In this document: positions 40,640-64,000 of the stretch, one piece after another | Layout: each line of letters starts with the position of its first letter | Position numbering within the stretch: position 1 is the first letter of the stretch | Assembly: GCF_029263155.1 (NCBI RefSeq) | Contig: NZ_JAJCYB010000077.1 | Location: 1 to 64,000, forward strand | Source: Pseudonocardia sp. | GTDB lineage: Bacteria; Actinomycetota; Actinomycetes; Mycobacteriales; Pseudonocardiaceae | Direction: 5' to 3' | DNA length: 64,000 nt | Notes under the pieces: model-generated | Database searches by the model: none | The model's input: the letters and a program-made list of their open reading frames with translations, nothing else | What the model was told of the DNA's origin: nothing | Program-made: the position numbers and the translations under genes

Positions 40640-42610
40640 TCAGCCTGCGGCGAGCTGGTCGTCGATCTGCACCTCGTACACGATCGTCGTCGGCGAGCTG
40701 TACACGATCCGCAGGGAGTCGACCGCGTCGAGGCCGACCATCCCCGGGGCGTTGCCGGGCGCGCTGTAGACCAGACCGGCGGACACGATCGCGTGCGTGA
40801 TGTTCATCCGCCGCACCACCTCGCGCACCACGGGATCGGTGTCGATGTCGCGGAAGGAGGTGTAGAGCAGGGCCCGGTCGGGGGTGAGTCCCGCCAGGTC
40901 GAGTTGCTGGTGCAGGGGCTGGGGGAACACCGGGCGCACACCCCTCAACGCGTACATCAGCGGGGACCCGTCGTAGGGGTCGTTCATGACGAGCGAACCC
41001 GGCGGGACGATCGTGGCGAGGCGGGTGAAGGCCCGCTCCTCCGCGTAGCTCACCGCGGGGCCGTCGGTGAACCCCTCGGAGATCCGCTGGCTGTTGCGGC
41101 CGAAGTAGAGGCCGTCGCTGGCTTCGACGACACCGAACAGCAGCACGGCCAGCAGGGCGGCCGGGAGCAGCCGTCCCCGTGCGGCCGGCACGGCGTCCGG
41201 GACCCGCAGCCTGCGCAGCGCGTCGAGTGCGACGTCGCGGACGACGACCAGGCCGCTGCCGGCCAGGGGCACCAGCGCCACCACCCACAGCGCGACGAGG
41301 CGGAACCGGTCGTTCCACCACGGTCGCGACAGCACCTCGACGAGCGCGCCCTCGTAGGCGGCGGCCATCACGAACACGGCACCGAACAGCAGGGCGCTCG
41401 CCGCCAGCCAGCGCAGCTCGGGATGCCGACGCACCCCGGCCAGGCCGAGGACGACGGCGCCCGCGAGCCACCACTGCGGGTGCTCGTGCGAGTGCGCGAA
41501 CGTCAGCAGCGTGCCGACGGCCTCGGCGGAGGACATCGCCACCGGCCAGTCGAACGAGCCGCCGCCTGCGGCCCCGGCCGAGGCGATCACCAGCGGCGCG
41601 CCCAACAGCACCGTCGCGACGGCACCGACCCCGATGACGACCGCGTCGTGGGTGGACGGTCCGCGGGTCCACCACTGCTGCACCAGGTATGCGGCCCCGA
41701 GTACGGCGGCCGCGACGACCGCGCTCGGATGCAGGGCGATCAGCCCGACGGTCGCGATGGCCAGGCACACCGCCCGCGTCACCCGCCGGGGCCGGTCGGG
41801 AGCCAGCACGTCGGCCCAGAGCGCGAGAAACGCCGGCAACAGGGCCAGCGCGACGACATAGGGGAGCAGGACCCCCGCCAGGTCGTAGGGGAAGGCGGAG
41901 AACGCGCAGGTCAGCAGCGCACTCGCGACCGCGATCGACGGCCGTCCCGACACCGTGCGCACCAGCGCGGCCGTGCCGAGGGCGAACAGGCCCGGGGCGA
42001 ACGCGGTGAGCAGCTCCAGCGCGACCGTCACCGGCACGTCGGTGATCATCACCAGGGTGGCCGCGACCACGTGGAACGCGTTCGGGTAGTAGAACTCGCC
42101 CTCGGCGCCGCTCAGCGCGCCCAGCGCGGACGGTGCGGACGCGCCCGTGTCGCTGATGTAGCGAATGGCGTTGGCGTGGAACGCGGTGTCCCAGAACTGC
42201 GGGATCGCGGTGAACCCGGCGGTGCCCGTGGACATCACGCCGAAGCCGACGGCGGTGCTCACCACCACCGCGGCGGCCACCGCGGCGTGGTCGACCCGGC
42301 GCCAGGGCGCACGGGCGGCGGGCGGTCCACCCGCGGGCCGCGACCGCAGGCGGCCGAGGGTGAAGCGGGCGACCGCCACGAGACCGGCCACGACGACCGT
42401 GCCGAGAGCCAGGGTCACGGGGCTCCACCGGACCCCGAGCACCGGCAGTACCGAGGCCCCGATGCCGATCAGGCCGAAGGTGCACAGGGGACCGGTCGCG
42501 GCGAGCAGCCAGCCGCGCAGGCCGGCCGCCAGCGCGAACAGCAGACCGGGCACCGCCACCACGATCAGCATGATCAGGATCGGGGTGGTCGCGGTGCCGG
42601 GATCCGGCAT
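40640..42610 (-). CDS. DUF6541 polytopic membrane protein (GT-C-like)
   Basis: 656 aa with about 14 helices. A loop after the third helix reads FWDTAFHANAIRYI, with an acidic residue where GT-C enzymes place the catalytic Asp, and YYPNAFH follows. The C-terminal 150 residues form an extracytoplasmic domain. The pattern fits DUF6541, a family I associate with Rv3779-type wall proteins. GGAGGACAG precedes the ATG. It probably transfers a sugar from a polyprenyl-phosphate donor outside the membrane. Confidence 0.75.
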   Translation of the reverse strand: MPDPGTATTPILIMLIVVAVPGLLFALAAGLRGWLLAATGPLCTFGLIGIGASVLPVLGVRWSPVTLALGTVVVAGLVAVARFTLGRLRSRPAGGPPAARAPWRRVDHAAVAAAVVVSTAVGFGVMSTGTAGFTAIPQFWDTAFHANAIRYISDTGASAPSALGALSGAEGEFYYPNAFHVVAATLVMITDVPVTVALELLTAFAPGLFALGTAALVRTVSGRPSIAVASALLTCAFSAFPYDLAGVLLPYVVALALLPAFLALWADVLAPDRPRRVTRAVCLAIATVGLIALHPSAVVAAAVLGAAYLVQQWWTRGPSTHDAVVIGVGAVATVLLGAPLVIASAGAAGGGSFDWPVAMSSAEAVGTLLTFAHSHEHPQWWLAGAVVLGLAGVRRHPELRWLAASALLFGAVFVMAAAYEGALVEVLSRPWWNDRFRLVALWVVALVPLAGSGLVVVRDVALDALRRLRVPDAVPAARGRLLPAALLAVLLFGVVEASDGLYFGRNSQRISEGFTDGPAVSYAEERAFTRLATIVPPGSLVMNDPYDGSPLMYALRGVRPVFPQPLHQQLDLAGLTPDRALLYTSFRDIDTDPVVREVVRRMNITHAIVSAGLVYSAPGNAPGMVGLDAVDSLRIVYSSPTTIVYEVQIDDQLAAG

Positions 42611-42719
42611 CTGTCCTCCGTGCCGGACGCGGTCGGGTGTGGCTCCGGCCGCTGGTGATCTCGGCCGACGCCCACTCTAGTGGTCGGCCGGCACCGTCCC
42701 GGCCGGGGCGGTGCCCGGC

Positions 42720-44768
42720 TCAACCCGGGCGGTTCCCCGGCGCGCCGTCACAGGCGGTGAGTTCGTAGAGGGCGCTCTCGTCGGCGTCGGGGGCGGCGGC
42801 GACCAGCCGGAAGCCGCTGTCCGGTGCGGGCGCCTCCAGCCCGGGATAGCGACGCGCACGGGAGTCGCCGAGCCAGAAGTCCGCTGTGCCGGCCAGGAGG
42901 TAGCGCACGCCGAGGCGGTCCGCTGCCGCGCACACCCGCCAATCGTCCTGCACGTCGCGCAGCCTGCGGGCCAACAGCACCTGGTCCGCTGACCAGTCAC
43001 CGGTGAGGTGCGGGAACAGCACCTCGTGTCCGGTGAGCGGCCACAGCAGCGCGCTGCCGCTCCACGGGTTCTGGGCGACGACCGCACCGGGCTCGATCAG
43101 GCCGCCGATGCGTTCGTAGAACTCCGCCTCGTCCGGGTCCAGCAGGTCCGACTCGGCCTGCGGCCCGGGGTAGGAGCTCCGCACGAACTCCGCGTTGCGC
43201 GCGGAGTACATCCCGCCGGAGGCCACCAGCACGAGCAGCCCGGCGACCAGCGCCCCCGCCGCGGCGGACGGCGGCCGGGCGCGGACCGGCCAGGCTCGGG
43301 ACACCAGCAGGCCCACGGCGAGCAGTCCCAGGACCGCGAGCGGCGCCGCGGTGACCGGGAGCACCGCGGCGAGGCGGTAGGAGTCGTTGTACCAGAGGGC
43401 GGTGACGGCTGCGGCGAACTCCGTCTCCTGCGCCGAGGCCAGCACGAACAGCGCCCCGGAAAGCAGGTGCGCGGGCACGAGCCAGCGGAACGCCGGCCGC
43501 AGGCAGGCCGCCCCGAGGCCCAGCAACACCACGACGGCCAGCGCCCAGGCGGCGGGGCGGTTGTTGGTCGCCCCGAGTGCCACTTCCCCCACCGCGCGCC
43601 CGGGGTCCTGGTAGGCGGCCCAGTCGAACTCGCGGACGTCGTCGAAGACCGGGCTGGTCAGCACGAACCACACCGCGGCCGCGATCCCGGCGGCGAGGCC
43701 GAGCACCAGCCCGGCCGGGACGATCCGCTCCCCGCCGCGCAGCCGTCGCCGTGCGGCCCGCCCGAGCGCCCAGGCCACCGGGAACACCGCGAGCAACGCC
43801 AGCGAGAACAGCGCGTTCGGGTGGGCCAGGCCGAGCGTCCCCGCCCCGACGGGCAGCAGCACCGCTGCGGTGCCGCGCCCCAGATCGACGGGCGGGCCGA
43901 GTCGGCAGAGCGCGACGACGACGGCCAGCACCGCGGGCGTCAGGCACAGCCCGGTCAGGTTCGGCCACAGCACGCCGAACCCCATCAGCGACCAGGGGAA
44001 CGAGACGAACCCGACCGCGACGACCGGGGCGAGCGCCACCGCGGCGGGCACCGGTCCGCAGATCACCCACACGAGCACCAGGCAGCTCAGCGGCCAGACG
44101 ACGCAGGCCAGTGCGGTGACGGCGGCGGTGGCCGCGACCGGGACCGACGCCCCCGTGGTGAGGACGACCAGCGAGACCAGGTCGTGCCACGCGGCCGGGT
44201 AGAACGCGATGTCGGCCGTCGGCGTGGTCAACCTGCCGAGCTGGAGCGACGACGCCGTTCCGTCGCTCAGGATCTCCATGACCGCGTTGTAGTGGAACAC
44301 CGCGTCGTAGGTCTGCGACAGCCGCGACGGCGTGCCGATCGCGGACGCGACGGTGAGGGTCCCGATCGTCGCGGCGACCGCCATGCCTGCGGTCGCCGCG
44401 AGGGCGTGCCGGGCGCCGTCGGCGCCCGGTCGGGACGCCCCGCCGGCGGGACCGCCCCGCCGTCGCCGTGCGGCGGGGAGCAGGCGGGCGCCCACCGCCA
44501 GCAGGGCGAGCACCACCGCGGGCCCGACGGCCACCGCGGGCGACCACGGCAGACCCAGCTGCCCCGCCACGACCGCGCCGCCCGCGACGGAACCGATCGA
44601 GACGACCGGGGCGAGTCCCCACGCACCGATGCCGCGCAGGCCGAGCGCGTAGGTGGCGGCCAGCCCGGGCACGGTCACCCAGGCCACGGCGACCAGGAGC
44701 ACCGGAGTGGCTGCGGCCCAGGCCGGCCAGTCGATCATCGGGCGGTCCGCGACGTCGCGGTCGGGCAC
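42720..44768 (-). CDS. DUF6541 polytopic membrane protein, second copy
   Basis: 682 aa, related to the next gene downstream on the same strand: TYDAVFHYNAVMEIL and FYPAAWHDL occupy the same places as FWDTAFHANAIRYI and YYPNAFH there, and the C-terminal extracytoplasmic domain is shared (VAQNPWSGSALLWPL versus VMNDPYDGSPLMYAL). The tandem pair has clearly diverged, so they probably use different acceptors. The start could be GTG 44768 or ATG 44738. Confidence 0.73.
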   Translation of the reverse strand: MPDRDVADRPMIDWPAWAAATPVLLVAVAWVTVPGLAATYALGLRGIGAWGLAPVVSIGSVAGGAVVAGQLGLPWSPAVAVGPAVVLALLAVGARLLPAARRRRGGPAGGASRPGADGARHALAATAGMAVAATIGTLTVASAIGTPSRLSQTYDAVFHYNAVMEILSDGTASSLQLGRLTTPTADIAFYPAAWHDLVSLVVLTTGASVPVAATAAVTALACVVWPLSCLVLVWVICGPVPAAVALAPVVAVGFVSFPWSLMGFGVLWPNLTGLCLTPAVLAVVVALCRLGPPVDLGRGTAAVLLPVGAGTLGLAHPNALFSLALLAVFPVAWALGRAARRRLRGGERIVPAGLVLGLAAGIAAAVWFVLTSPVFDDVREFDWAAYQDPGRAVGEVALGATNNRPAAWALAVVVLLGLGAACLRPAFRWLVPAHLLSGALFVLASAQETEFAAAVTALWYNDSYRLAAVLPVTAAPLAVLGLLAVGLLVSRAWPVRARPPSAAAGALVAGLLVLVASGGMYSARNAEFVRSSYPGPQAESDLLDPDEAEFYERIGGLIEPGAVVAQNPWSGSALLWPLTGHEVLFPHLTGDWSADQVLLARRLRDVQDDWRVCAAADRLGVRYLLAGTADFWLGDSRARRYPGLEAPAPDSGFRLVAAAPDADESALYELTACDGAPGNRPG

Positions 44769-51976: not shown

Positions 51977-53236
<1,260 letters not shown>

Positions 53237-53443: not shown

Positions 53444-55426
53444 GTGACGACGACCGCCGCACCCGCCCCCGCAGCCGCCCCGACGACGGGCGGCGGCACC
53501 GGCGGCCTGCTGCAGCGGGTGATCCTGCCCCGCTCCGGCGACCCGATGAGCGTGCGCTCGCTGTACCTGGACGAGCGGACCGGGGTGCGGCTGACGACGC
53601 CGCCGCCCCTGCCGGGCTCACCGCTGCGCGAGGTCAACCTGATCGGTACGGCCGCCACCGCGCGGCGGCTGCGGGTGGTCTCCCGGACCTCGGCGCTGGT
53701 CCCCGAGCAGAGCGAGGTGTCCTTCGGGGCTTACTTCAACGCGTTCGCCGCGGGCTACTGGCGGCACTGGTCGGCGCTCACCGAGGTGCACCTGAGGCTC
53801 GCGCTGTCGGGCTCAGGGCGCGTCGACGTCTACCGCACCAAGGCCGACGGCTCGCAGATCTTCGTGGGTGGCGAGGTCGTGGACGGCCGGCTGGACCTCG
53901 ACATGGCGCTGGACCTGCGGCCCTTCGAGGACGGTGGCTGGTACTGGTTCGACCTCACCACCGACTCCGGCGAGCTGACGCTGCACTCCGGGGGCTGGTT
54001 CGCCGCGCAGGAGTCGGCGACGCGCGCAGCCGTGACGATCGGGATGCCCACGTTCAACCGTCCCGCCGACTGCGTGGCCACGCTCAACGCGATCGCCGAG
54101 GACCCGCTGGTGCTCGACACGGTCGTCACGGTGATCATCCCCGACCAGGGCACGAAGAAGGTGCGCGACGAGCCGGGGTTCGCCGAGGTCGCCGCGCTGC
54201 TCGGCGACAAGCTGCGGATCATCGACCAGCCCAACCTGGGCGGCTCCGGCGGCTACGCGCGGATCATGTACGAGGCGCTCGGGTCCACCGACTGCGAGCA
54301 GATCCTCTACATGGACGACGACATCCTGCTCGAGCCCGACTCGGTGCTGCGCGCCGTCGCGTTCTCCCGCTACAGCCGCGAGCCGATGCTGGTCGGCGGG
54401 CAGATGCTGTCGCTGCAGGCACGTTCCCAGCTGTCCACGATGGGCGAGGTCGTCGACCGCAACGCCTTCCTGTGGCGCAACGCCCCCGGCACCGAGCCGC
54501 ACCACGACCTCGCCGAGAAGACGCTGCGGCAGACGCCGTGGCTGCACCGGCGCACCGACGTCGACTACAACGCGTGGTGGATGTGCCTGATCCCACGCGC
54601 CGTCGCGGAGGACCTGGGCCTGCCGCTGCCGCTGTTCATCAAGTGGGACGACGCCGAGTACGGCCTGCGCGCCCGCTCGCGCGGCTACCGCACGGCCACC
54701 GTGCCCGGCATCGCGATCTGGCACATGTCGTTCCTGGAGAAGGACGACACCAGCGACTGGCAGGCCTACTTCCACTACCGCAACCGGTTCGTCGCGGCGG
54801 CGCTGCACGGGCCGGACAACCCGCGCGCGCTGCTCGTGGACACGGTGAAGCGCTCGCTGCGGCACCTGATGCTGATGGAGTACTCGGCGATGGCGCTGCA
54901 GGAGATGGCGCTGCGCGACTTCTTGGCCGGGCCCGAGCAGCTGTTCCCGAAGCTGCCTTCTGCGCTGGGGGAGATCCGGGCCATCAGGGCCGAGTTCGAC
55001 GACGGTCGCCCGCTCGACTCGGCCACGCAGGTGCCGCACTCCGACCTGGACGCGCTGGCCGCGCAGGTGTTCCCGGAGCCGCCGACGAGGAAGCTGGCGA
55101 TCGTGAAGGGGCTGGCGCGCAGCGTGCTGCACAACCTGCGCGCGGTGGACCCCGCCCACCAGGTCGTGCCGCAGCGCAACGTGCCGTCGAAGCAGGCGCA
55201 GTGGTTCGTGCTCTCCCGCCTGGACTCGGCCACCGTCTCCACACCGGACGGCCGCGGCGTCACGTTCCGCCGCCGCGACCCCGCGCTGTTCCGGTCGATG
55301 ATGCGGACCTCGGTGACGCAGCTGCGCGAGATCGGGCGGGCCTGGCCGCAGCTGCGGGAGCGCTACCGCGCGGCGGTCCCGGAGCTGACGGGCCGCGAGG
55401 GCTGGAAGCGCATCTTCGACGCATGA
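53444..55426 (+). CDS. glfT2: Galactofuranosyltransferase GlfT2
   Basis: 660 aa (Mtb GlfT2 is 637). An N-terminal beta-barrel region (RVILPRSGDP, VSFGAYFNAFAAGYW) is followed by a GT-A domain: TIGMPTFNRPADC, metal triad Asp291-Asp293 in YMDDDI, paired Trp378-379, WDDAEYGLRARS (Asp402/403, probable base) and His427 in WHMSF. A helical C-terminus mediates tetramers in the homologue. It polymerises the galactan with alternating beta-1,5 and beta-1,6 galactofuranose at the membrane. The Ala/Pro/Thr-rich N-terminal tail is extra. A hairpin repeat follows the stop. Confidence 0.95.
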   Translation: MTTTAAPAPAAAPTTGGGTGGLLQRVILPRSGDPMSVRSLYLDERTGVRLTTPPPLPGSPLREVNLIGTAATARRLRVVSRTSALVPEQSEVSFGAYFNAFAAGYWRHWSALTEVHLRLALSGSGRVDVYRTKADGSQIFVGGEVVDGRLDLDMALDLRPFEDGGWYWFDLTTDSGELTLHSGGWFAAQESATRAAVTIGMPTFNRPADCVATLNAIAEDPLVLDTVVTVIIPDQGTKKVRDEPGFAEVAALLGDKLRIIDQPNLGGSGGYARIMYEALGSTDCEQILYMDDDILLEPDSVLRAVAFSRYSREPMLVGGQMLSLQARSQLSTMGEVVDRNAFLWRNAPGTEPHHDLAEKTLRQTPWLHRRTDVDYNAWWMCLIPRAVAEDLGLPLPLFIKWDDAEYGLRARSRGYRTATVPGIAIWHMSFLEKDDTSDWQAYFHYRNRFVAAALHGPDNPRALLVDTVKRSLRHLMLMEYSAMALQEMALRDFLAGPEQLFPKLPSALGEIRAIRAEFDDGRPLDSATQVPHSDLDALAAQVFPEPPTRKLAIVKGLARSVLHNLRAVDPAHQVVPQRNVPSKQAQWFVLSRLDSATVSTPDGRGVTFRRRDPALFRSMMRTSVTQLREIGRAWPQLRERYRAAVPELTGREGWKRIFDA

Positions 55427-55475
55427 ACGACGGCCCGCGCGACGGCGGTGCGGCCCTCGCTCCGTGGGCCGCGGA

Positions 55476-55530
55476 TTGCAGCAAGGCCACCTTGCCGCAA
55501 CGGGGCTGCGTGAAGGTGGCCTTGCTGCAA
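55476..55530. repeat. Hairpin repeat (copy 2), likely terminator after glfT2
   Basis: TTGCAGCAAGGCCACCTT at 55476-55493 pairs perfectly with 55513-55530 across a 19-base loop. It shares TGCAGCAAGGCCACC and CTGCAACCGG with the hairpin at 11904-11958. It begins 49 bases after the glfT2 stop and lies before the emb start, so the two genes are probably separate transcripts. Confidence 0.82.
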
Positions 55531-55589
55531 CCGGTGCTGGGGCGGCCACGGGTGGTGGGGCGGCCACCGGTGCTGGGGCGCTCCCGGCC

Positions 55590-58500
55590 GTGCTGACCGA
55601 CACCCGGCCGGTGCCCCGGCGGGCCGTCCCGGCCCGGCCCGCGCGGCCGTCCTGGCTGCCGGTCGTCGTGCTGGCCCTGCTGACCGGGCTGCTCGGCGTG
55701 GCCGCGGTGCTCGCCCCCGTCGACGCCGACGAACCGGTGCTGACCTGGCCCCGCGCGGGCGAGGCGCCGACGTCCACGGTCGTGCCGCTGGCGCCCTACC
55801 GCCCGCTGGAGCTGCGGGCGCAGATCCCGTGCGCCACGCTGCGCGCCGTCGACGGCGAGGTGTTGCGGACGCTGCCCGCCGACGTCGACGCGACCCTCGG
55901 TTCCGGGCTGGTCGTGGCCTCCGCCGGGGGCACCGTCACGATCGACTCCTCGGGGCAGCGGCTGGTCACCGAACCGCTCGCCGCGGGGTGCGCCGCCTAC
56001 ACCGTCGAGGCGGACGGTGCGGGCACCCGGGTGCTGCGCGACGGCACCCTCGTCGCCGAACGGCCCGGGTTGCTCACCCCGCAGGTCGCCCAGCTGGAGA
56101 CGGGCGCGCAGGGCCGCCCGGAGGCCGCGGGGCTCGCGGTGGAGATCCACACCGACGCGCGGTACCAGTCGGTGCCCTCGCCCCTGAAGACCGCGCTGCT
56201 CATCGGGCACGGCCTCGCGCTGGTCGCGCTGCTGGTGGTGGCGTGGCGCGCCTGGCCGGGGCGCGGGCCCGGCCTGCGGCTGCCCCGGCCCGGCGTCCCG
56301 GACGTGCTGGTGCTGGCCGTCTCGGCGGTGTGGGCCGTCATCGGGCCGGTCAACGTCGACGACGCCTGGTACTCGCTGATGGCGCGGGGCGCGGCGGCGT
56401 CGGGCTACGTCGGCAACCACGTCTACCAGTTCAACGTCACCGAGAACCCGTTCGTGCTGGCGCAGTACGCGATGCAGGCCTGGGGCGGGATCGGCGGCTG
56501 GAGCCTGCTGTGGCTGCGCGTGCTCCCGCTGGTCTACGGCCTCGTGACCTACCTGCTGTTGCGCGTGCTGCTGGCCACCGCGCTGGGCCGGGTCGGGCGG
56601 GGACGCCCCGGGCGCCGTGCCGCATGGGCGCTCGCGGCGGCACACCTGGTGTGGTTCCTGCCCTACGGCATGACGCTGCGGCCCGAACCGCTGATCGTCG
56701 TGCTGACCGCCGGGGTGCTCGTGCTGGTCGAGCTGGCGCGGCGCCGGCGCTCGGTGGGGGCGCTCGTCGCGGCGACGGCGCTGGCCGCGCTCGCGATGAC
56801 GGTGTCCCCGACGGCCCTGGTGGCCGTCGTCCCGCTGCTGCTGGCCCTGACCTGGCTGGGCCGCTGGTGGCGGGGCGCCGCGCGGGGCACCCGGGTCGCC
56901 GCCGTGCTCGCGGCGGTCGCGGCCACCTCGGTGGTGGTGCCCGTCGGGTTCGCCGACGCGTCGCTGGGCGACGTGCTCGAGTCCGTCGCCGTGCACCGCT
57001 GGTACTACCGCCAGTACGCCTGGTACGACGAGTACGTCCACTACGCGGCGCTGCTCGCCCCGGCCGACACCGGCTCGTGGGGCAAGCGGCTCCCGGTGCT
57101 GCTGACGATCGCGGTGCTCGTGCTCGGGCTGCTGTCGGTCGGGCGCAGGCGGGGCACCCGCGGCCCGACCGGGCGGCTGCTCGCGGTCGCGACCGTGCTG
57201 ACCGGCCTGGCGCTGGTGTCGCTGGTGTTCACGCCCACCAAGTGGGTCAACCATTTCGGGGCCGTCGCCGCGCCCGCCACCGTGCTGCTCACCGCCGCCC
57301 TGCTGCGCTCGCCGGTGCCGCGCCGCCCGGGCGCGGCGGTGCTGGCCTTCGCGACCGCGACCGCCGTCGTCGCGGCGGCCGTGAGCTTCGCCGGTCCGAA
57401 CCTGTGGCGGCCCTACGCCGACTGGGGGCAGTCGTTCGGCAACCACGCCGACCTCTCCACGCCCTACCTGCTCAGCCTCCTGCTGCCCCAGGTCGGCCCG
57501 ATCGCGCTGCGGAACCCGCTGCTGTGGCTGGCGGTCGCGGCGCTCGCCTGGATCGTGGTCCGCCGGGTGCGCACGCCCCTGGGCCTGACGCCGGACCGGG
57601 CCGTGCTCGCCGTCGCTGTCGCCGGCGGGCTGGCGCTGCTGCTGGCGGTGTTCACGCTGGCGCCCGTGCGCCAGGCGCCGGGCGCGTCGGTCGCGGGCAT
57701 GAACCTCGCCACGCTGCGCGGTGCCGGCTGCGGGTTCGCGGGGGCGGTCAGCGTCCTGGACGGCGACCGGCTCGGCGCGGCTGCGGACGGTGCCGAGCTC
57801 GGCGGCGACATGGTCGCGGGCCGCCCGCCCGACCGGGACCCGATCCCGGCCGCGCCCGACGTCGCCACGTGGCACGACGACGTCCCGGGCGGCTCCGGCA
57901 CGGGCACGCTGAGCACGCCGTGGTACCCGGTCCCGCCCGGCGACCCGTCCGACACGGTGGTCGTCTCCGCAGCGGGTGACCTGCGGGAGCCCCAGGACGT
58001 GACGGTCGAGTTCCGGTCCGGCGCGGGGATGTCCGCCGTCGCCTTCGGGCCGGAGGGTCGGCCCGAGGGATGGGTGGACCTGCTCGTCCGCCTCGGCGAC
58101 CTGGACCCGGCGGCGGAGCGGCCCACGCAGGTCCGGGTGGTCGCGAACGACACGCTCGCCGGGGACGACACCTGGCTGGCGGTGACGGCCCCGCGCCTGG
58201 CCACCGCCCGCGGGGTGCCCGAGCTGACCGGCGGGGCGCCGGTGTTCGCCGACCAGGTCTCCGCCGTGTTCTGGCCCTGCGTCGACCAGATCGAGATACG
58301 CCACGGCCTGGCCGAGGCGCCCGCGTACCGGCTGCGCGCGGGAGACGGGCTCGAGGACGAGATCGAGGAGAACGCGACGTTCCCCGACAACGGCGGCACG
58401 CTGGCCCAGATCGACCGCACCGCACGGTTCGTCGAGCTCCCGTCGACGCTGGACCCGGCGGCCGGGGCCGAGACGCTGGCCTGGGGGCACGTCGACCGGG

Positions 58501-58622
58501 TGGTGTACGACCACCCGCCCGGCGCCTACGACGTGACGGTCACCGAGACCCGCCGCGCCGGCTGGACGCGCCTGCCCTCGCTGGTCGGTGAGGACTACAC
58601 CGGCCGCGTCTTCATCGGCTAG
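55590..58622 (+). CDS. Emb-family arabinosyltransferase (copy 1)
   Basis: A 1010-aa GT-C membrane enzyme. One N-terminal helix, an extracytoplasmic jelly-roll (about 50-200), then some 13 helices. Catalytic Asp257-Asp258 lie in VNVDDAWYSL, followed by GYVGNHVYQFNVTENPF; TPTKWVNHFGA is the second conserved Emb loop. A carbohydrate-binding C-terminal domain covers about 700-1010. It adds arabinofuranose from decaprenyl-phosphoryl-arabinose to galactan. GTG 55590 is chosen because the frame further upstream runs through the hairpin repeat. Which of EmbA, B or C it replaces cannot be told. Confidence 0.9.
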   Translation: MLTDTRPVPRRAVPARPARPSWLPVVVLALLTGLLGVAAVLAPVDADEPVLTWPRAGEAPTSTVVPLAPYRPLELRAQIPCATLRAVDGEVLRTLPADVDATLGSGLVVASAGGTVTIDSSGQRLVTEPLAAGCAAYTVEADGAGTRVLRDGTLVAERPGLLTPQVAQLETGAQGRPEAAGLAVEIHTDARYQSVPSPLKTALLIGHGLALVALLVVAWRAWPGRGPGLRLPRPGVPDVLVLAVSAVWAVIGPVNVDDAWYSLMARGAAASGYVGNHVYQFNVTENPFVLAQYAMQAWGGIGGWSLLWLRVLPLVYGLVTYLLLRVLLATALGRVGRGRPGRRAAWALAAAHLVWFLPYGMTLRPEPLIVVLTAGVLVLVELARRRRSVGALVAATALAALAMTVSPTALVAVVPLLLALTWLGRWWRGAARGTRVAAVLAAVAATSVVVPVGFADASLGDVLESVAVHRWYYRQYAWYDEYVHYAALLAPADTGSWGKRLPVLLTIAVLVLGLLSVGRRRGTRGPTGRLLAVATVLTGLALVSLVFTPTKWVNHFGAVAAPATVLLTAALLRSPVPRRPGAAVLAFATATAVVAAAVSFAGPNLWRPYADWGQSFGNHADLSTPYLLSLLLPQVGPIALRNPLLWLAVAALAWIVVRRVRTPLGLTPDRAVLAVAVAGGLALLLAVFTLAPVRQAPGASVAGMNLATLRGAGCGFAGAVSVLDGDRLGAAADGAELGGDMVAGRPPDRDPIPAAPDVATWHDDVPGGSGTGTLSTPWYPVPPGDPSDTVVVSAAGDLREPQDVTVEFRSGAGMSAVAFGPEGRPEGWVDLLVRLGDLDPAAERPTQVRVVANDTLAGDDTWLAVTAPRLATARGVPELTGGAPVFADQVSAVFWPCVDQIEIRHGLAEAPAYRLRAGDGLEDEIEENATFPDNGGTLAQIDRTARFVELPSTLDPAAGAETLAWGHVDRVVYDHPPGAYDVTVTETRRAGWTRLPSLVGEDYTGRVFIG

Positions 58623-60535
58623 TGCCGTTGCTCGGGGTCCAGGCCGTACAGGCGGGCCCAGTTCGCGCGGCTGGTCAGCGCGGGCATCGCCGCGCGGTAG
58701 CGCGCCGCCACCGCGGGGCCCTCCCGCACGACGCGGCGCAGCGTGCGCGCCCCCCGCCCGGCCAGCTCCAGGGCCAGGCCGCGGTCGCGCGTGCGGACCC
58801 GGTAGCCGTGCTCGCCCATGTCGGCGACGACCGCGCGCTCGAACGTCGACACGTGCCACCAGTGCGCGTCACCGGCGGGGACGAACCCGGTGCGGTGCGG
58901 CGCCCGGTCGGTGACCAGGTAGGCCACGCGCTTGAGCCAGGTGAGTCGCTGCTTGGTCGGGGTGCCGGCGTCGCGGACGACCTGCACCTCGCGGAAGTCG
59001 TCGGTCAGGTCGGCCATCGGGTGCAGGACGGTCTCCGGGTAGGCCGAGCGGATCCGCCGGATCTCCGCCGCCGCGTCGGCCGACCCGTCCCGCAGGATGT
59101 CCGGCCCGTCCAGGAAGTCCTCGACCGCGGTGAGCAGCGTGACCGCGAGGCCGTAGTGCATCGCGACCAGGTTCTGCGCCAGGGTCTTCCCGAGCTGGCG
59201 CACCACCCGCTTGGTGGAGAAGCCGGTGTGCAGCGCGGCGGTGATGAGCCCGTTGCGCAGGTTGAAGTACCGGTGCCACTCGTCCCAGTCCTTCCACCCG
59301 AAGTCGGCGTGCCAGACCCCGGCGCCGGGCAGGGCGACGGTGGGGAAGCCGTGGGCGCGGGCGCGGTAGCCGAACTCGATGTCGTCCCACTGGAAGAACA
59401 GCGGCAGCGGGTAGCCGATCTCCCGCACGATCGCGGCCGGGATCAGGCAGGACCACCAGCCGTTGTACTCGGTGTCGACGCGCCGTTCCTGGTTGATCGG
59501 CAGGTCGTGCTCGTCGAGCCCGAGCAGGTTCGCCTCGGCCAGCGCGCCCGGCACCGGCAGGCCCACGGTGAGGATCTCCGGGTCGGCGTACTCCGCGGAG
59601 ATGTGCAGGTGGGTGGGGTGCAGCAGGTTGAGCATCTGTCCGCCGACGATCGTCGGGTGCCGGGTGCAGGCCGCGAACGCGGTGAGCCGCACCAGGATCT
59701 CCGGCTCCAGGAGCACGTCGTCGTCCATCAGCAGGACGTCGGAGTGCCCGTCGGGAGCGCCTGCGGTGGCGTCGAAGATGCCCCGGGTGAAGCCGCCCGC
59801 CCCGCCCAGGTTGGGCTGGCGGACGTAGCGCAGCCGGGCCCCCAGCGCCGCGGACACCTCGACGAAGCGCGGGCGTGCCTCGAGCGGGTCGCTGCCCTGG
59901 TCCACCACCTGCACCGTGCCGACGGTCTCCAGCGCGCGCGGGTCGTCGGCGAGGGCCCGGAGCGTGTCGAGGCAGTCGTCGGCGCGGTTGTAGGTGCAGA
60001 TGACGACGTCGGTGCGCGCCATCCGCGGCGGCGCGGCGACGCTCCACTCGACCCCCGACACCGTCATCTCGCCGGTCTCGGTCGACAGCTCCAGCCACAG
60101 GCCGCCGCCGTCGAGGAAGCGGTCGATGCGCGCGGACAGGGTGACGACCCGCTCCGGCGCGTCGTCGACGCGCTCCGCGGCCACGATCCGCCACACCTTG
60201 TTCGTGTCCGAGGCCAGCACCCGCACCCGCCCGGTGCCCGATACCGTCAGCCGCACCTGCACCGACTCGGCGGTGGTCCAGCGCTGCCAGTAGGTGGCGT
60301 GGACGCGGCCGAAGTAGGTGTTGGTGGACACGCGCGTGCCTGGGGTCAGGTGGACGCCGTGGCGCTCGCGGCGGGCGGCGCCGGAGCCCACCACCGAGTA
60401 GAGGTCCTCGGGAACCAGGGCCGACGGCCCGAAGAACAGCCCGCGCTGGACCAGCAGCCGCGGCGGCGGCGGCTCGGCGGGTGCGACGTCGGACGTGGCC
60501 GCCACGGAGTCGGTGTCCTCCGGTGTGCGCAGCAT
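58619..60535 (-). CDS. GlfT2-like galactofuranosyltransferase paralogue
   Basis: 638 aa with the full GlfT2 architecture: an N-terminal barrel (VSTNTYFGRVHATYWQRW), TDVVICTYNRADDC, metal motif LLMDDDV, GWWSCLIP, WDDIEFGYRARAHG, VWHADF and a helical C-terminus. All catalytic positions seen in glfT2 are kept. It is much less like Mtb GlfT2 than the gene at 53.4 kb, so it is a distinct clade, possibly with a different acceptor or linkage or a priming role like GlfT1. Its stop codon shares CTAG with the convergent emb stop. Confidence 0.88.
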   Translation of the reverse strand: MLRTPEDTDSVAATSDVAPAEPPPPRLLVQRGLFFGPSALVPEDLYSVVGSGAARRERHGVHLTPGTRVSTNTYFGRVHATYWQRWTTAESVQVRLTVSGTGRVRVLASDTNKVWRIVAAERVDDAPERVVTLSARIDRFLDGGGLWLELSTETGEMTVSGVEWSVAAPPRMARTDVVICTYNRADDCLDTLRALADDPRALETVGTVQVVDQGSDPLEARPRFVEVSAALGARLRYVRQPNLGGAGGFTRGIFDATAGAPDGHSDVLLMDDDVLLEPEILVRLTAFAACTRHPTIVGGQMLNLLHPTHLHISAEYADPEILTVGLPVPGALAEANLLGLDEHDLPINQERRVDTEYNGWWSCLIPAAIVREIGYPLPLFFQWDDIEFGYRARAHGFPTVALPGAGVWHADFGWKDWDEWHRYFNLRNGLITAALHTGFSTKRVVRQLGKTLAQNLVAMHYGLAVTLLTAVEDFLDGPDILRDGSADAAAEIRRIRSAYPETVLHPMADLTDDFREVQVVRDAGTPTKQRLTWLKRVAYLVTDRAPHRTGFVPAGDAHWWHVSTFERAVVADMGEHGYRVRTRDRGLALELAGRGARTLRRVVREGPAVAARYRAAMPALTSRANWARLYGLDPEQRH

Positions 60536-60597
60536 GGCGTGGGGGTCCTCCGGTTCGGGTCAGGGATCCGGCCAATTGTGGTGGCGGGCGCACGTGC

Positions 60598-60629
60598 GGA
60601 CGACCGCGGGGCCCGTCCCGCCGTCGTCC
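60598..60629 (-). terminator. Hairpin terminator after emb copy 2
   Basis: GGACGACCGCGGG at 60598-60610 and CCCGCCGTCGTCC at 60617-60629 pair over 13 bases with one mismatch and a six-base loop. It lies 28 bases after the emb stop and before the GlfT2-paralogue start, which has its own GGAGGACC site. Confidence 0.7.
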
Positions 60630-60656
60630 GCCGGCCGGCGGGGCGCCGACCTCCGC

Positions 60657-63600
60657 TCAGCGGCTCGCTCCGGCGGTGCCGGCCGGGGGCTCGCCCTGCG
60701 GTCCGGGGGAGTACCAGCCCCAGCGCGTCTGCGTGCCGGTGATCCGCTCCGGTGAGCCCGCGCCCGGCTCGTAGAGGTCTATGCGGCGCAGCTCGCCCCA
60801 GTCGCGGTCGGGCTCGCCCGCGAGGTAGCTGGGCACGGGTTCCTGGTCCCCGATCAGCTCGACCCAGGCCAGCGGGCCACCCGCCGCCGCCGCGGACCAG
60901 ATGTCGCCCAGCGGCCTGAGCTGCTCGTCGGCGAGCAGGCGGTGGGTGGGCACCTCGGCCACGCCGTCGACCACCGCGAACGGTCGCACGCACGGGTTGG
61001 CGAAGGGGACCGGCCAGTCGACCAGCACCGGGGAGTCGCCGAGCACCTCGGTGAGCGTGGCCTGCTCGGGAACCCGGGGCGGGGTGACGGCCAGCCAGCC
61101 GCCGGGACCCACGGCCCGGTCCTCGGCGATCACCCGGACCACGTCGGCGCCGTCGACGACCGGGGTGCGCAGGTCGCGCCAGCCCGGCTCGCCGGTGCGC
61201 TCGTCGGACACGTCGACGGTGGTGAGCACCTCGGTGCCCAGGGCCGTGGAGCGCCCGAACTCGACGGCCACGCTCGTGCCGCCGGAGGTGCGCCCGGCCA
61301 CGCTCACCGCGAGCGGGGTGCCGCCGCCGTCGGGGGGCAGCGCGAACCAGCCGGACCGGAACGTCGCGGGGCCGCCGTCGGGCCGGAAGCTGCCCACGAC
61401 CGGCGCGATGCCGCTCGGCTGGGCGTAGGTCTCCTCGGTGCCGCCGGTGCTGCCGCCGTCCGGGGGCACCCCCCCGACGGCGAACCCGTCGGTGACCGGC
61501 GGCTCGTCCCCGGGGCGCGGGTCGGACGCGGGGAGCACGCCCGCGTCGGTGTCGACGAGCACGCGGTCCGCGAGGCCGCACCCGGCACCACCGGTGGCGA
61601 GGACGTCCCCGCCGACGGAGTAGCTCCCGCGCTGCTCGAGCATCGCCTTGCCCATCGACCCGACCTGCAGCGCCACCAGCGCCCCGCACACCACGACCAG
61701 CGGTCCGGCCCCCAGGCGCAGGGCCAGCCCGGGCGGTTGCACCCGCTCCCGCCCGCCGCGCAGGTTGCCGACACCGGCCACGGCCAGGCAGCCGACGGCG
61801 GCGAGGAGCAGCACCTGGTAGATCTCGATCCCGCCGATCACCGGTGGGCGGTCGAACCACGGGACGCCCCAGTTCGACACGTACATCCAGGCGTTGGGTC
61901 CGGTGAACGCGATGGCCGCGACACCCAGCACGGCGGCGAGGAACACGGTGCGGTTGCGCCCCGAGCGCAGCACCGGCGCGCTGGTGGCCAGTGCGGCCAG
62001 CGCCCCCACCCCGCCGCCGATCGCGGCGAACGCGCCGAAGTGGTGGGTCCACTTCGTCGGCGTCAGCAGCAGCACGAGGAACCCGAGCAGGGTCACCGCG
62101 ATCAGCCGCCTGCTCGGGCCCAGCGCCGCACCGGGGATGGCGCCGCGGCGCAGGATGACCACCGCGCAGACCCCGATGCACAGTACGAGCAGCAGCACCG
62201 GGAACCGGCGCGCCAGCGCGCCGTCCTGGTTGGGGGCGAACAGGTCGACGTACCGGGCGATCTCGTTGTACCAGGGCACGTTCGGCCCGATGCCGGTCCG
62301 GACTCGGGTGGCCTCCAGCACCGTCGCGACCGTCTGGTCACCGAAGACGGCCACCAGCACGATCAGCCCGGCGCCCAGTATCGGCGCGAGCACCGCGGCC
62401 CAGCCGTCGACGGCCGCGCGCTCGCGGAACATCCCCAGCAGGGGGCGGGCCGCGGCGACGAACGGCGCCACCGCCAGCAGCCCGGTCGGCGTCGCGCCCA
62501 CCGCGAACGCCGCCGCGACGAGCCCGATCGCCACCGGGACCAGCCGGCGCACCACCAGCGCCCGCTCCAGCGCCACGTAGGCCACCAGCGCCCCGAGCAC
62601 GACGACCGGCTCCGGCCGCAGCCCCGAGAGGAAGGGCAGCCAGAAGCAGAGGAACACCGTGGCCGCGGCCCATCCCGCTGCGCGGCTCTGCCGCACCTGG
62701 CGGCCCAGCCGGGGGAGCAGCCCGCGGCTCAGCAACAGCCACGACAACACGCCCATGATCAGCGAGGGCAGGCGTAGCCACAGCACGGAGTCACTGACCC
62801 GGGCCCACGGCGCGTACAGCTCGTAGAACCAGCCGAACGGTGCCTCGGGGACGTCGAACCAGCGGTAGTAGTTGCCGACGTAGCCGGTGTCGCTCGCCGC
62901 ACGCACCATCGTGAGGATGTAGCCGTCGTCGGCGGTGACGGCGCCGAACGCCAGCCACACCACGAGCGTGCCGATCACCACCGTGTCCCGGACGGGATCG
63001 GTGCGTCGCCGGCGGCCGGCGCGGGCCCGGCGCGGCAGCCGCCTGCCGTGGCGGGCGTCGAGGCCGTGCAGCACCGCCAGAGCGCCGAGCAGCGCGAGCA
63101 CCGCGAGCACCCCGACGGCCACCTTGAGCGGTGTGGGGGTCGAGTCGTACCGGTTGTCGACGGTGATCACGACGGACGCGCCCGCGCCCTGCGCGTCGGA
63201 CAGGTCGGAGTACACGCCGACGACCTCGGGGCGCAGGTCGTCGGTGGAGTCGACGAGCGTCTGCCCGCCCAGCACGACCGTGGTCGCCGCCGCGTCGGTG
63301 CTGATCGAGAGCGCACACCCGGGGGTGGTGGGCACCGGCGTGGCGGCGAGCACCTCGCCGTCGCCGATCACGCTGACGGTGCCCGCGTCGACGGTGACCG
63401 CGAGCCCGACGGCCGCACCACCGGGGGCGTCGGCGGGGGTCGTCGAGAACGCGGTGCCGGTGCCCAGCCCGGCCAACGTGGTGCACGGCAGTTCGGCGGT
63501 GAGGCGCTCGGGTCGGATCGCGACCAGCGGGGCGGTGACCGGTGCGGTGCCGTTCTCGGCGGTGGGCCAGCGCAGCTGCAGCGTGTCCTGCTCGACCGGC

Positions 63601-63725
63601 AGGAACGGGAAGGCCACGGCGAGCACCGCGGCCAGCAGGCCCAGCACGGCCGCCACCGCGGTCCGGCCCGGGGGCCGGGGGCCCGCCGTGCCGGTGAGCA
63701 GGGGCGGGCGGTCGAGCGTGAGCAT
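60657..63725 (-). CDS. Emb-family arabinosyltransferase (copy 2)
   Basis: 1022 aa. The same layout as copy 1: one helix, jelly-roll, catalytic Asp266-Asp267 in VTADDGYILTMVRA, then GYVGNYYRWFDVPEAPFGWF and PTKWTHHFGAF, and a C-terminal carbohydrate-binding domain. The DDGYI loop and WLRLPSLIMGVLSWLLLSR resemble mycobacterial EmbB more than copy 1 does. ATG 63725 is preceded by TAATCT with a seven-base gap, so the mRNA is leaderless. It probably forms arabinan together with copy 1; pairing as a heterodimer like EmbA-EmbB is plausible. Confidence 0.9.
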   Translation of the reverse strand: MLTLDRPPLLTGTAGPRPPGRTAVAAVLGLLAAVLAVAFPFLPVEQDTLQLRWPTAENGTAPVTAPLVAIRPERLTAELPCTTLAGLGTGTAFSTTPADAPGGAAVGLAVTVDAGTVSVIGDGEVLAATPVPTTPGCALSISTDAAATTVVLGGQTLVDSTDDLRPEVVGVYSDLSDAQGAGASVVITVDNRYDSTPTPLKVAVGVLAVLALLGALAVLHGLDARHGRRLPRRARAGRRRRTDPVRDTVVIGTLVVWLAFGAVTADDGYILTMVRAASDTGYVGNYYRWFDVPEAPFGWFYELYAPWARVSDSVLWLRLPSLIMGVLSWLLLSRGLLPRLGRQVRQSRAAGWAAATVFLCFWLPFLSGLRPEPVVVLGALVAYVALERALVVRRLVPVAIGLVAAAFAVGATPTGLLAVAPFVAAARPLLGMFRERAAVDGWAAVLAPILGAGLIVLVAVFGDQTVATVLEATRVRTGIGPNVPWYNEIARYVDLFAPNQDGALARRFPVLLLVLCIGVCAVVILRRGAIPGAALGPSRRLIAVTLLGFLVLLLTPTKWTHHFGAFAAIGGGVGALAALATSAPVLRSGRNRTVFLAAVLGVAAIAFTGPNAWMYVSNWGVPWFDRPPVIGGIEIYQVLLLAAVGCLAVAGVGNLRGGRERVQPPGLALRLGAGPLVVVCGALVALQVGSMGKAMLEQRGSYSVGGDVLATGGAGCGLADRVLVDTDAGVLPASDPRPGDEPPVTDGFAVGGVPPDGGSTGGTEETYAQPSGIAPVVGSFRPDGGPATFRSGWFALPPDGGGTPLAVSVAGRTSGGTSVAVEFGRSTALGTEVLTTVDVSDERTGEPGWRDLRTPVVDGADVVRVIAEDRAVGPGGWLAVTPPRVPEQATLTEVLGDSPVLVDWPVPFANPCVRPFAVVDGVAEVPTHRLLADEQLRPLGDIWSAAAAGGPLAWVELIGDQEPVPSYLAGEPDRDWGELRRIDLYEPGAGSPERITGTQTRWGWYSPGPQGEPPAGTAGASR

Positions 63726-63732
63726 CGCGTCG

Positions 63733-63738
63733 AGATTA
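63733..63738 (-). promoter_or_regulatory. emb copy 2 promoter -10
   Basis: TAATCT on the minus strand, seven bases before the ATG, is the best -10 box in the window and indicates leaderless transcription. Confidence 0.55.
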
Positions 63739-63811
63739 GACAACCGGGTCCCGGGGCCCGGGGTCACCTCCCCGCTGGTCCTCGACGGGGAGGGCATCGC
63801 ATGATCGGGGC

Positions 63812-64000
63812 ATGACGCTCCCACTCGGCCCCGACGAGCTGCTGACGACCACCCGGTCGGTGCGCAAGCGCCTCGACCTCGACCGGCCGGTGCCCCTCGC
63901 CCTCGTCCGGGAGAGCCTCGAGGTGGCGGTGCAGGCGCCCAGCGGCGGCAACCAGCAGGGCTGGCACTGGATGGTCGTCACCGATCCGGAGCTGCGCGCG
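63812..64000 (+). CDS. Nitroreductase family protein (partial, cut by window end)
   Basis: The first 63 codons are present: TRSVRKRLDLDRPVP, where SVRK(R) is the FMN-phosphate-binding segment, then EVAVQAPSGGNQQGWHWMVV, the second FMN contact typical of nitroreductases (SGGNQQ). It would be a flavin-dependent NAD(P)H reductase. It is divergent from emb copy 2 over 86 bases. CATGAT at 63800-63805 is a possible -10 for leaderless initiation at ATG 63812. Confidence 0.82.
   Translation, partial: MTLPLGPDELLTTTRSVRKRLDLDRPVPLALVRESLEVAVQAPSGGNQQGWHWMVVTDPELRA

Follow-up and report, generated by a model that had tools for sequence, protein, structure and literature searches.

What a second GlfT2-type protein does beside a canonical one is the question raised by a stretch of Pseudonocardia DNA in which both are encoded. 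The window analysed is the whole stretch of 64,000 nucleotides (positions 1-64000 of contig C77, in an assembly of 5.8 Mb), and the proteins in question are here called B, the canonical one, and C, its GlfT2-like companion. The mycolyl-arabinogalactan wall is built on a galactan backbone, and GlfT2 has been studied as a drug target. In mycobacteria, the first two galactofuranose (Galf) residues are added by GlfT1, the alternating remainder is added by GlfT2, and export is by Wzm-Wzt (PMC10951656). On balance, the comparisons favour C as a putative alternative galactofuranosyltransferase of galactan synthesis whose acceptor or linkage specificity has changed.

Two classes of GlfT2-type protein

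B (53444..55426, plus strand) and C (58619..60535, minus strand) each carried Glft2_N, a glycosyltransferase family 2 (GT2) domain, and GlfT2_domain3 above the Pfam cut-offs. Scores for Glft2_N and GlfT2_domain3 were 161.4 and 259.4 bits in B, and 67.1 and 76.4 bits in C. B matched M. tuberculosis GlfT2 (4fix) with 676.9 bits and 9oa3/9dtp with 728.5 bits, 9dtp being the GlfT2 of N. brasiliensis. It clustered with M. tuberculosis GlfT2 in the tree and retained W309, K369, and H413 (residues are numbered as in M. tuberculosis GlfT2); B was thus canonical in architecture, clade, and these three residues, the points on which it was tested, and is predicted to be a galactan polymerase. C matched 4fix with 346.3 bits and was 35% identical to B. 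An AlphaFold2 model of C (predicted local distance difference test score 80.0, predicted template modelling score 0.81) was aligned with GlfT2 structures at VIA-align Z values of 38-40 over 586-598 residues, the next family reaching a Z of 15, and identity to the solved GlfT2 structures was 31-33%.

A phylogeny of both proteins, proposed in a sequence-only reading of this DNA, was built by a quick method from 87 sequences. B grouped with M. tuberculosis GlfT2 and C fell in a clade of its own: 56 C sequences were separated from 30 canonical sequences and M. tuberculosis GlfT2 by a single branch with a Shimodaira-Hasegawa-like approximate likelihood ratio test (SH-aLRT) value of 100, and C lay outside the clade of M. 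tuberculosis GlfT2 with the same value. By this tree, C is a deep sister clade of canonical GlfT2, present in three families. The sequence-only reading had called C a clearly divergent paralogue, which was right and understated, C being a separate clade in three families and no local paralogue. A recent duplication as the origin of C was rejected because the clade is old and C is only 35% identical to B.

The residues of the same numbers of C and canonical rows (56 and 30) were then compared, the C rows having been chosen independently of the glutamine (Q) motif at position 369. R171, Q200, N229, D256-D258, W348, D371, D372, and H396 were kept in 56/56 C rows, and W347 and E300 in 55/56 each; the C of the window keeps the DDD metal motif, Asp371/Asp372, His396, and Trp347/Trp348. 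In contrast, W309 was present in 0/56 C rows and in 29/30 canonical rows, position 369 was Q in 54/56 C rows with K369 in 30/30 canonical rows, and H413 was kept in 2/56 C rows against 29/30 canonical rows. At positions 309, 369, and 413, the C of the window has V, Q, and N instead of W, K, and H. A second set comprised 80 named C loci, the best 80 among 502 found and hence biased towards the query, from Rhodococcus, Rhodococcoides, Amycolatopsis, Lentzea, Saccharothrix, Prauserella, and others. Position 413 was N in all 80; position 369 was Q in all 80, a count that is not independent because one of the two retrieval patterns contains that Q. Position 309 lies in a variable stretch and was mostly P, V, A, or H in the 56-row alignment and G in the 80-locus alignment, so that the only claim made for it is that Trp is absent, the aligned letter varying by alignment. 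Positions 397 and 399 were left out as evidence because a one-residue gap aligns them differently in the two alignments.

Docking of the natural substrate has placed Y236, D256, W309, W348, K369, D372, W399, and Q409 in contact with it (PMC6863818). The statement in the sequence-only reading that C keeps all catalytic positions held for the metal, donor, and catalytic residues and failed for the acceptor-side residues W309, K369, and H413. Being nearly fixed, these changes suggest that C differs in acceptor register or in linkage. Relative to canonical GlfT2 (4FIX of M. tuberculosis; for Nocardia brasiliensis, 9DTP and the tri- and tetrasaccharide complexes 9NJ0 and 9NJ1), C is alike in its three-domain architecture, its predicted fold, its donor, metal, and catalytic residues, and the company of glf, GlfT1, and Wzm-Wzt that it keeps, but differs in clade, in identity, and at these three positions. 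Separately, two tandem C-type genes were seen in a genome of the genus Mycobacterium (G165:C2:2273279-2276974), with K and T replacing the usual Q at 369.

Distribution and gene neighbourhood of C

GlfT2-type proteins of 110 Pseudonocardiaceae genomes were classed using a threshold of 45% identity to C, the observed values being at least 47% or at most 39%. C without canonical GlfT2 was found in 38 genomes, 12 of which held two C genes; 37 genomes had canonical GlfT2 only, 24 had both, and 11 had neither. Because it occurs without canonical GlfT2 in 38/110 genomes, C is probably an independent galactofuranosyl elongation enzyme. Within Pseudonocardia, C was found in 55/62 genomes, always alongside a canonical-type gene (four of them, G506, G513, G018, and G514, are fragmentary). 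Of the seven Pseudonocardia genomes without C, two had B at a contig end, and the canonical gene of the other five was of a different type (68-100% to the G027 protein). B and C were convergent in 51/51 Pseudonocardia genomes having both on one contig, and for this reason the layout is no assembly accident. The gap between them was less than 1.1 kb in 31 of these genomes and at least 3 kb in 20, and an emb1-like gene filled it in the six wide-gap genomes that were fetched (G001, G002, G005, G012, G013, and G026). In another genome, G274 (L099, L100), canonical GlfT2 lies beside glf, and elsewhere a B-like GlfT2 lies directly beside a C gene, as though B and C moved together.

The Mycobacteriaceae were represented by 79 genomes selected by a Glft2_N match, in which each genus label rests on one member. 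Canonical GlfT2 was present in 79/79. C was present in Nocardia (9/9), Rhodococcus(oides) (4/4), and three further genera (4/4), and was found in 1/41 Mycobacterium, 2/9 Corynebacterium, and 0/12 genomes of four other genera.

In the stretches fetched around the 80 named C loci, GlfT1 was found in 69, each of the ATP-binding cassette (ABC) partners in 68, glf in 39, and Emb in 8; some of the 11 loci without GlfT1 are stretches ended early by contig ends. Since GlfT1 accompanies C in 69/80 named loci, C appears to belong to galactan synthesis. At further C loci, GlfT1 was in the stretch in 2/3 from Nocardia, 2/2 from Corynebacterium, and 3/7 from f16 (Blastococcus-type). Three other observations were made at C loci. 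The Corynebacterium genes (G281:C5 and G304:C4; L148 and L147) are highly divergent C-type genes close to GlfT1. In Lentzea xinjiangensis (G258, L096), glf, C, canonical GlfT2, and GlfT1 occur together, and the galactan of this genome is perhaps made without Emb-made arabinan. In the Nocardia genome G055 (L056:4625-7344), a GT2 gene and a DUF2142 membrane protein adjoin C; the pair could supply the beta-glucose (beta-Glc) branch of Nocardia galactan, acting as donor-lipid synthase and membrane transferase.

The remark in the sequence-only reading that no short GlfT1 was seen applied to the window, within which none was found, and did not extend to the genome. The genome-wide search that it had proposed located a single GlfT1 over the NCBIfam cut-off, at C102:572-1456 (479.8 bits against a cut-off of 330; NF050113). 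This gene adjoins genes for an ABC ATPase (read as Wzt) and an ABC-2 permease (read as Wzm), and lies on another contig than C; in four Pseudonocardia genomes (G002, G003, G223, and G475), GlfT1 and C are about 15-20 kb apart on the same contig. Contamination as the source of the GlfT1 match (assembly contamination is 5.98%) was considered unlikely, the gene being single copy, and four other genomes of the genus that were compared had one copy each. GlfT1 was present in 107/110 Pseudonocardiaceae genomes and in 99/99 of those having either GlfT2 class. Like C, it is a GT2-type galactofuranosyltransferase of the same pathway and a regular neighbour at the named loci, but C is about twice as long and GlfT1 is separately present. 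GlfT1 without either GlfT2 class at the threshold was seen in the Pseudonocardiaceae genomes G431, G118, G444, G060, G453, G185, G324, and G392.

Possible roles of C in galactan synthesis

If C is an alternative galactan galactofuranosyltransferase, GlfT1, encoded elsewhere in the genome, would prime the lipid-linked galactan and B would elongate it as a canonical GlfT2. C would act on the same lipid-linked galactan through a donor site and catalytic machinery of like kind but with changed acceptor recognition, and would most likely elongate it with a different or single linkage pattern. In Amycolatopsis-type genomes it would do so without canonical GlfT2, and in Pseudonocardia, Nocardia, and Rhodococcus alongside B or canonical GlfT2; Emb proteins, where present, would then add arabinan. 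From the comparisons we infer uridine diphosphate galactofuranose (UDP-Galf) as the donor of C, as well as its acceptor and its cooperation with B. The sequence-only reading had also offered a second galactofuranose chain as the product of C. This is possible, and an alternative elongation enzyme is favoured over it because 38/110 genomes have C and no canonical GlfT2.

Published galactan structures bear on the linkage. Mycobacterial galactan has alternating 5/6 linkages, and that of N. nova has a (1->5) backbone in which every other residue bears beta-Glc at O6 (PMC12794489); R. equi galactan is described as a mixture of 1->3, 1->5, and 1->6 linkages (PMC6889329, citing Daffe 1993). The presence of C loosely tracks non-mycobacterial galactan, as Nocardia and Rhodococcus carry C and Mycobacterium is mostly without it. 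A functional precedent for UDP-Galf transferase variants that set galactan linkage is provided by the galactan synthases PamC1/PamC2 of Kingella kingae, two alleles whose galactan is either exclusively beta(1-5) or else beta(1-3)/beta(1-6) (PMC12269835), but this galactan is linked to lipopolysaccharide in a Gram-negative organism. A broader proposal, which we hold tentatively and at somewhat less than even weight, is that C represents a third galactofuranosyltransferase class ('GlfT3') with its own linkage specificity, and that the mix of GlfT2 and GlfT3 sets galactan structure across the Mycobacteriales. If true, it would explain why Rhodococcus and Nocardia galactans are unlike the mycobacterial one, and non-mycobacterial galactans would be predicted in Amycolatopsis, Pseudonocardia, and the few C-bearing Mycobacterium and Corynebacterium species. 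The C class itself, widespread and changed on its acceptor side, is a concrete candidate gene for the linkage differences reported in Nocardia and Rhodococcus, a natural contrast with GlfT2 for how a single active site selects linkages, and a possible genome marker of wall structure. No description of a C-type class was found in the open-licence literature, including searches for GlfT2 with Pseudonocardia or Nocardia brasiliensis and for GlfT3, and the open-licence work consulted on Nocardia and Rhodococcus galactan linkages named no gene for the difference.

Several points limit the evidence or weigh against a distinct specificity for C. The acceptor-side role of H413 is our assumption. The tree program flagged nine long end branches, all of them C, and warned that two Corynebacterium C sequences were possibly joined falsely to the remaining C sequences. 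The correlation with structure consists of two genera, with C counted in members of each genus and not in N. nova or R. equi themselves; moreover, because the C proteins of Nocardia and Rhodococcus fall in one clade, they perhaps had a single origin. C-type genes also occur at times in Corynebacterium (2/9) and Mycobacterium (1/41), and since all 79 selected Mycobacteriaceae genomes keep canonical GlfT2, the contribution of C itself is inseparable there. In the Pseudonocardiaceae, 8/11 genomes with neither GlfT2 class still had GlfT1. A search for Emb (PF04602) gave no match in 8/38 C-only genomes, 13/37 canonical-only genomes, and 6/24 genomes with both, that is, in 27/99 genomes with a GlfT2-type gene; on this account, some of these genomes may make galactan that carries no Emb-made arabinan. 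Galactan in Amycolatopsis-type walls is known from chemotaxonomy, and in the open-licence literature searched (Amycolatopsis, Pseudonocardiaceae), galactan of the C-only genera was not found. Finally, W309 and K369 as substrate contacts rest on docking and not on mutants (PMC6863818).

The explanation that best survives beside an alternative specificity is that C is a functionally redundant GlfT2 whose product is no different from the alternating beta(1-5)/beta(1-6) galactan, and that it is kept for regulation or dosage. The predicted fold and catalytic residues of C are the same as those of GlfT2, and canonical-only genomes (37/110) are about as frequent as C-only genomes (38/110), as expected if either suffices. 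However, the acceptor-side changes are nearly fixed throughout the C clade, and both classes are kept in 24/110 Pseudonocardiaceae, in 55/62 Pseudonocardia, and in 9/9 Nocardia. The pairing is also specific in Pseudonocardia, where the B type accompanies C and C is absent from 5/5 genomes with the other canonical type. That B and C regularly occur together in Pseudonocardia, and that C has changed residues on the acceptor side, speaks against full redundancy of the two without disproving it, and we consider it unlikely.

It is also improbable, to judge from the genomes and residues compared, that C adds another sugar to the galactan as a decoration or branch, such as the beta-Glc at O6 in Nocardia, and does not extend the backbone. 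Nocardia has both C and a Glc-branched galactan, and the changed residues of C are on the acceptor side by docking. Against this, C is the sole GlfT2-type class in 38/110 genomes, always with GlfT1; its donor-site residues match those of GlfT2; the R. equi galactan is described by Galf linkages; and the GT2 and DUF2142 membrane protein beside the Nocardia C offer another candidate for the Glc branch. The proposal of the sequence-only reading that C takes over the priming role of GlfT1 is very improbable: C does match the GlfT1 model NF050113 weakly (28.6 bits), but this is far below the cut-off of 330, and the proposal is unsupported because an orthodox GlfT1 is present elsewhere in the same genome and in all 99 genomes with either GlfT2 class.

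Layout and neighbouring genes of the locus

The glfT2-type and emb genes reported in the sequence-only reading were confirmed, including the end-to-end meeting of emb1 with C, where the stop codons of the two genes overlap. The arrangement had been called mirrored; the two strands do converge, but the DNA order is B, emb1, C, emb2, which is no true mirror. The B reading frame is open from 53288, and a GAGGA 7 bases 5' of the GTG at 53444 favours that start; C starts with ATG, with GGAGGA ahead of it.

Between B and C lies emb1 (55464..58622, plus strand), and emb2 (60657..63824, minus strand) is on the same strand as C, 121 bp upstream of it. Both proteins were over the cut-off for the three Emb domains PF17689, PF04602, and PF14896, as in EmbA/EmbB/EmbC, and arabinosyl transfer is predicted for them. 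The domain scores were 54.7, 204.2, and 83.9 bits, respectively, for emb1 and 102.4, 589.1, and 218.3 bits for emb2, so that emb1 is the weak, divergent member; its best PDB match was EmbB (161.5 bits), with an Asp-Asp pair aligned.

Ahead of B is glf (52034..53236, plus strand), encoding UDP-galactopyranose mutase, which makes UDP-Galf (TIGR00031, 333.1 bits with a cut-off of 303.75; PF03275, 272.5 bits). On the same contig 3' of the window are an acyltransferase-domain gene, a short-chain dehydrogenase, and an oxidase with flavin adenine dinucleotide (FAD)/ALO domains, the latter two being presumably DprE2 and DprE1 as named by domain. Because glf, GlfT2-type, and Emb-type genes are accompanied by these DprE2- and DprE1-like genes past the window, the locus is part of a galactan/arabinogalactan cluster. 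Elsewhere in the window, on the minus strand at 40640-44768, a tandem pair of DUF6541 membrane proteins, perhaps membrane glycosyltransferases, adjoins GT2-type genes.

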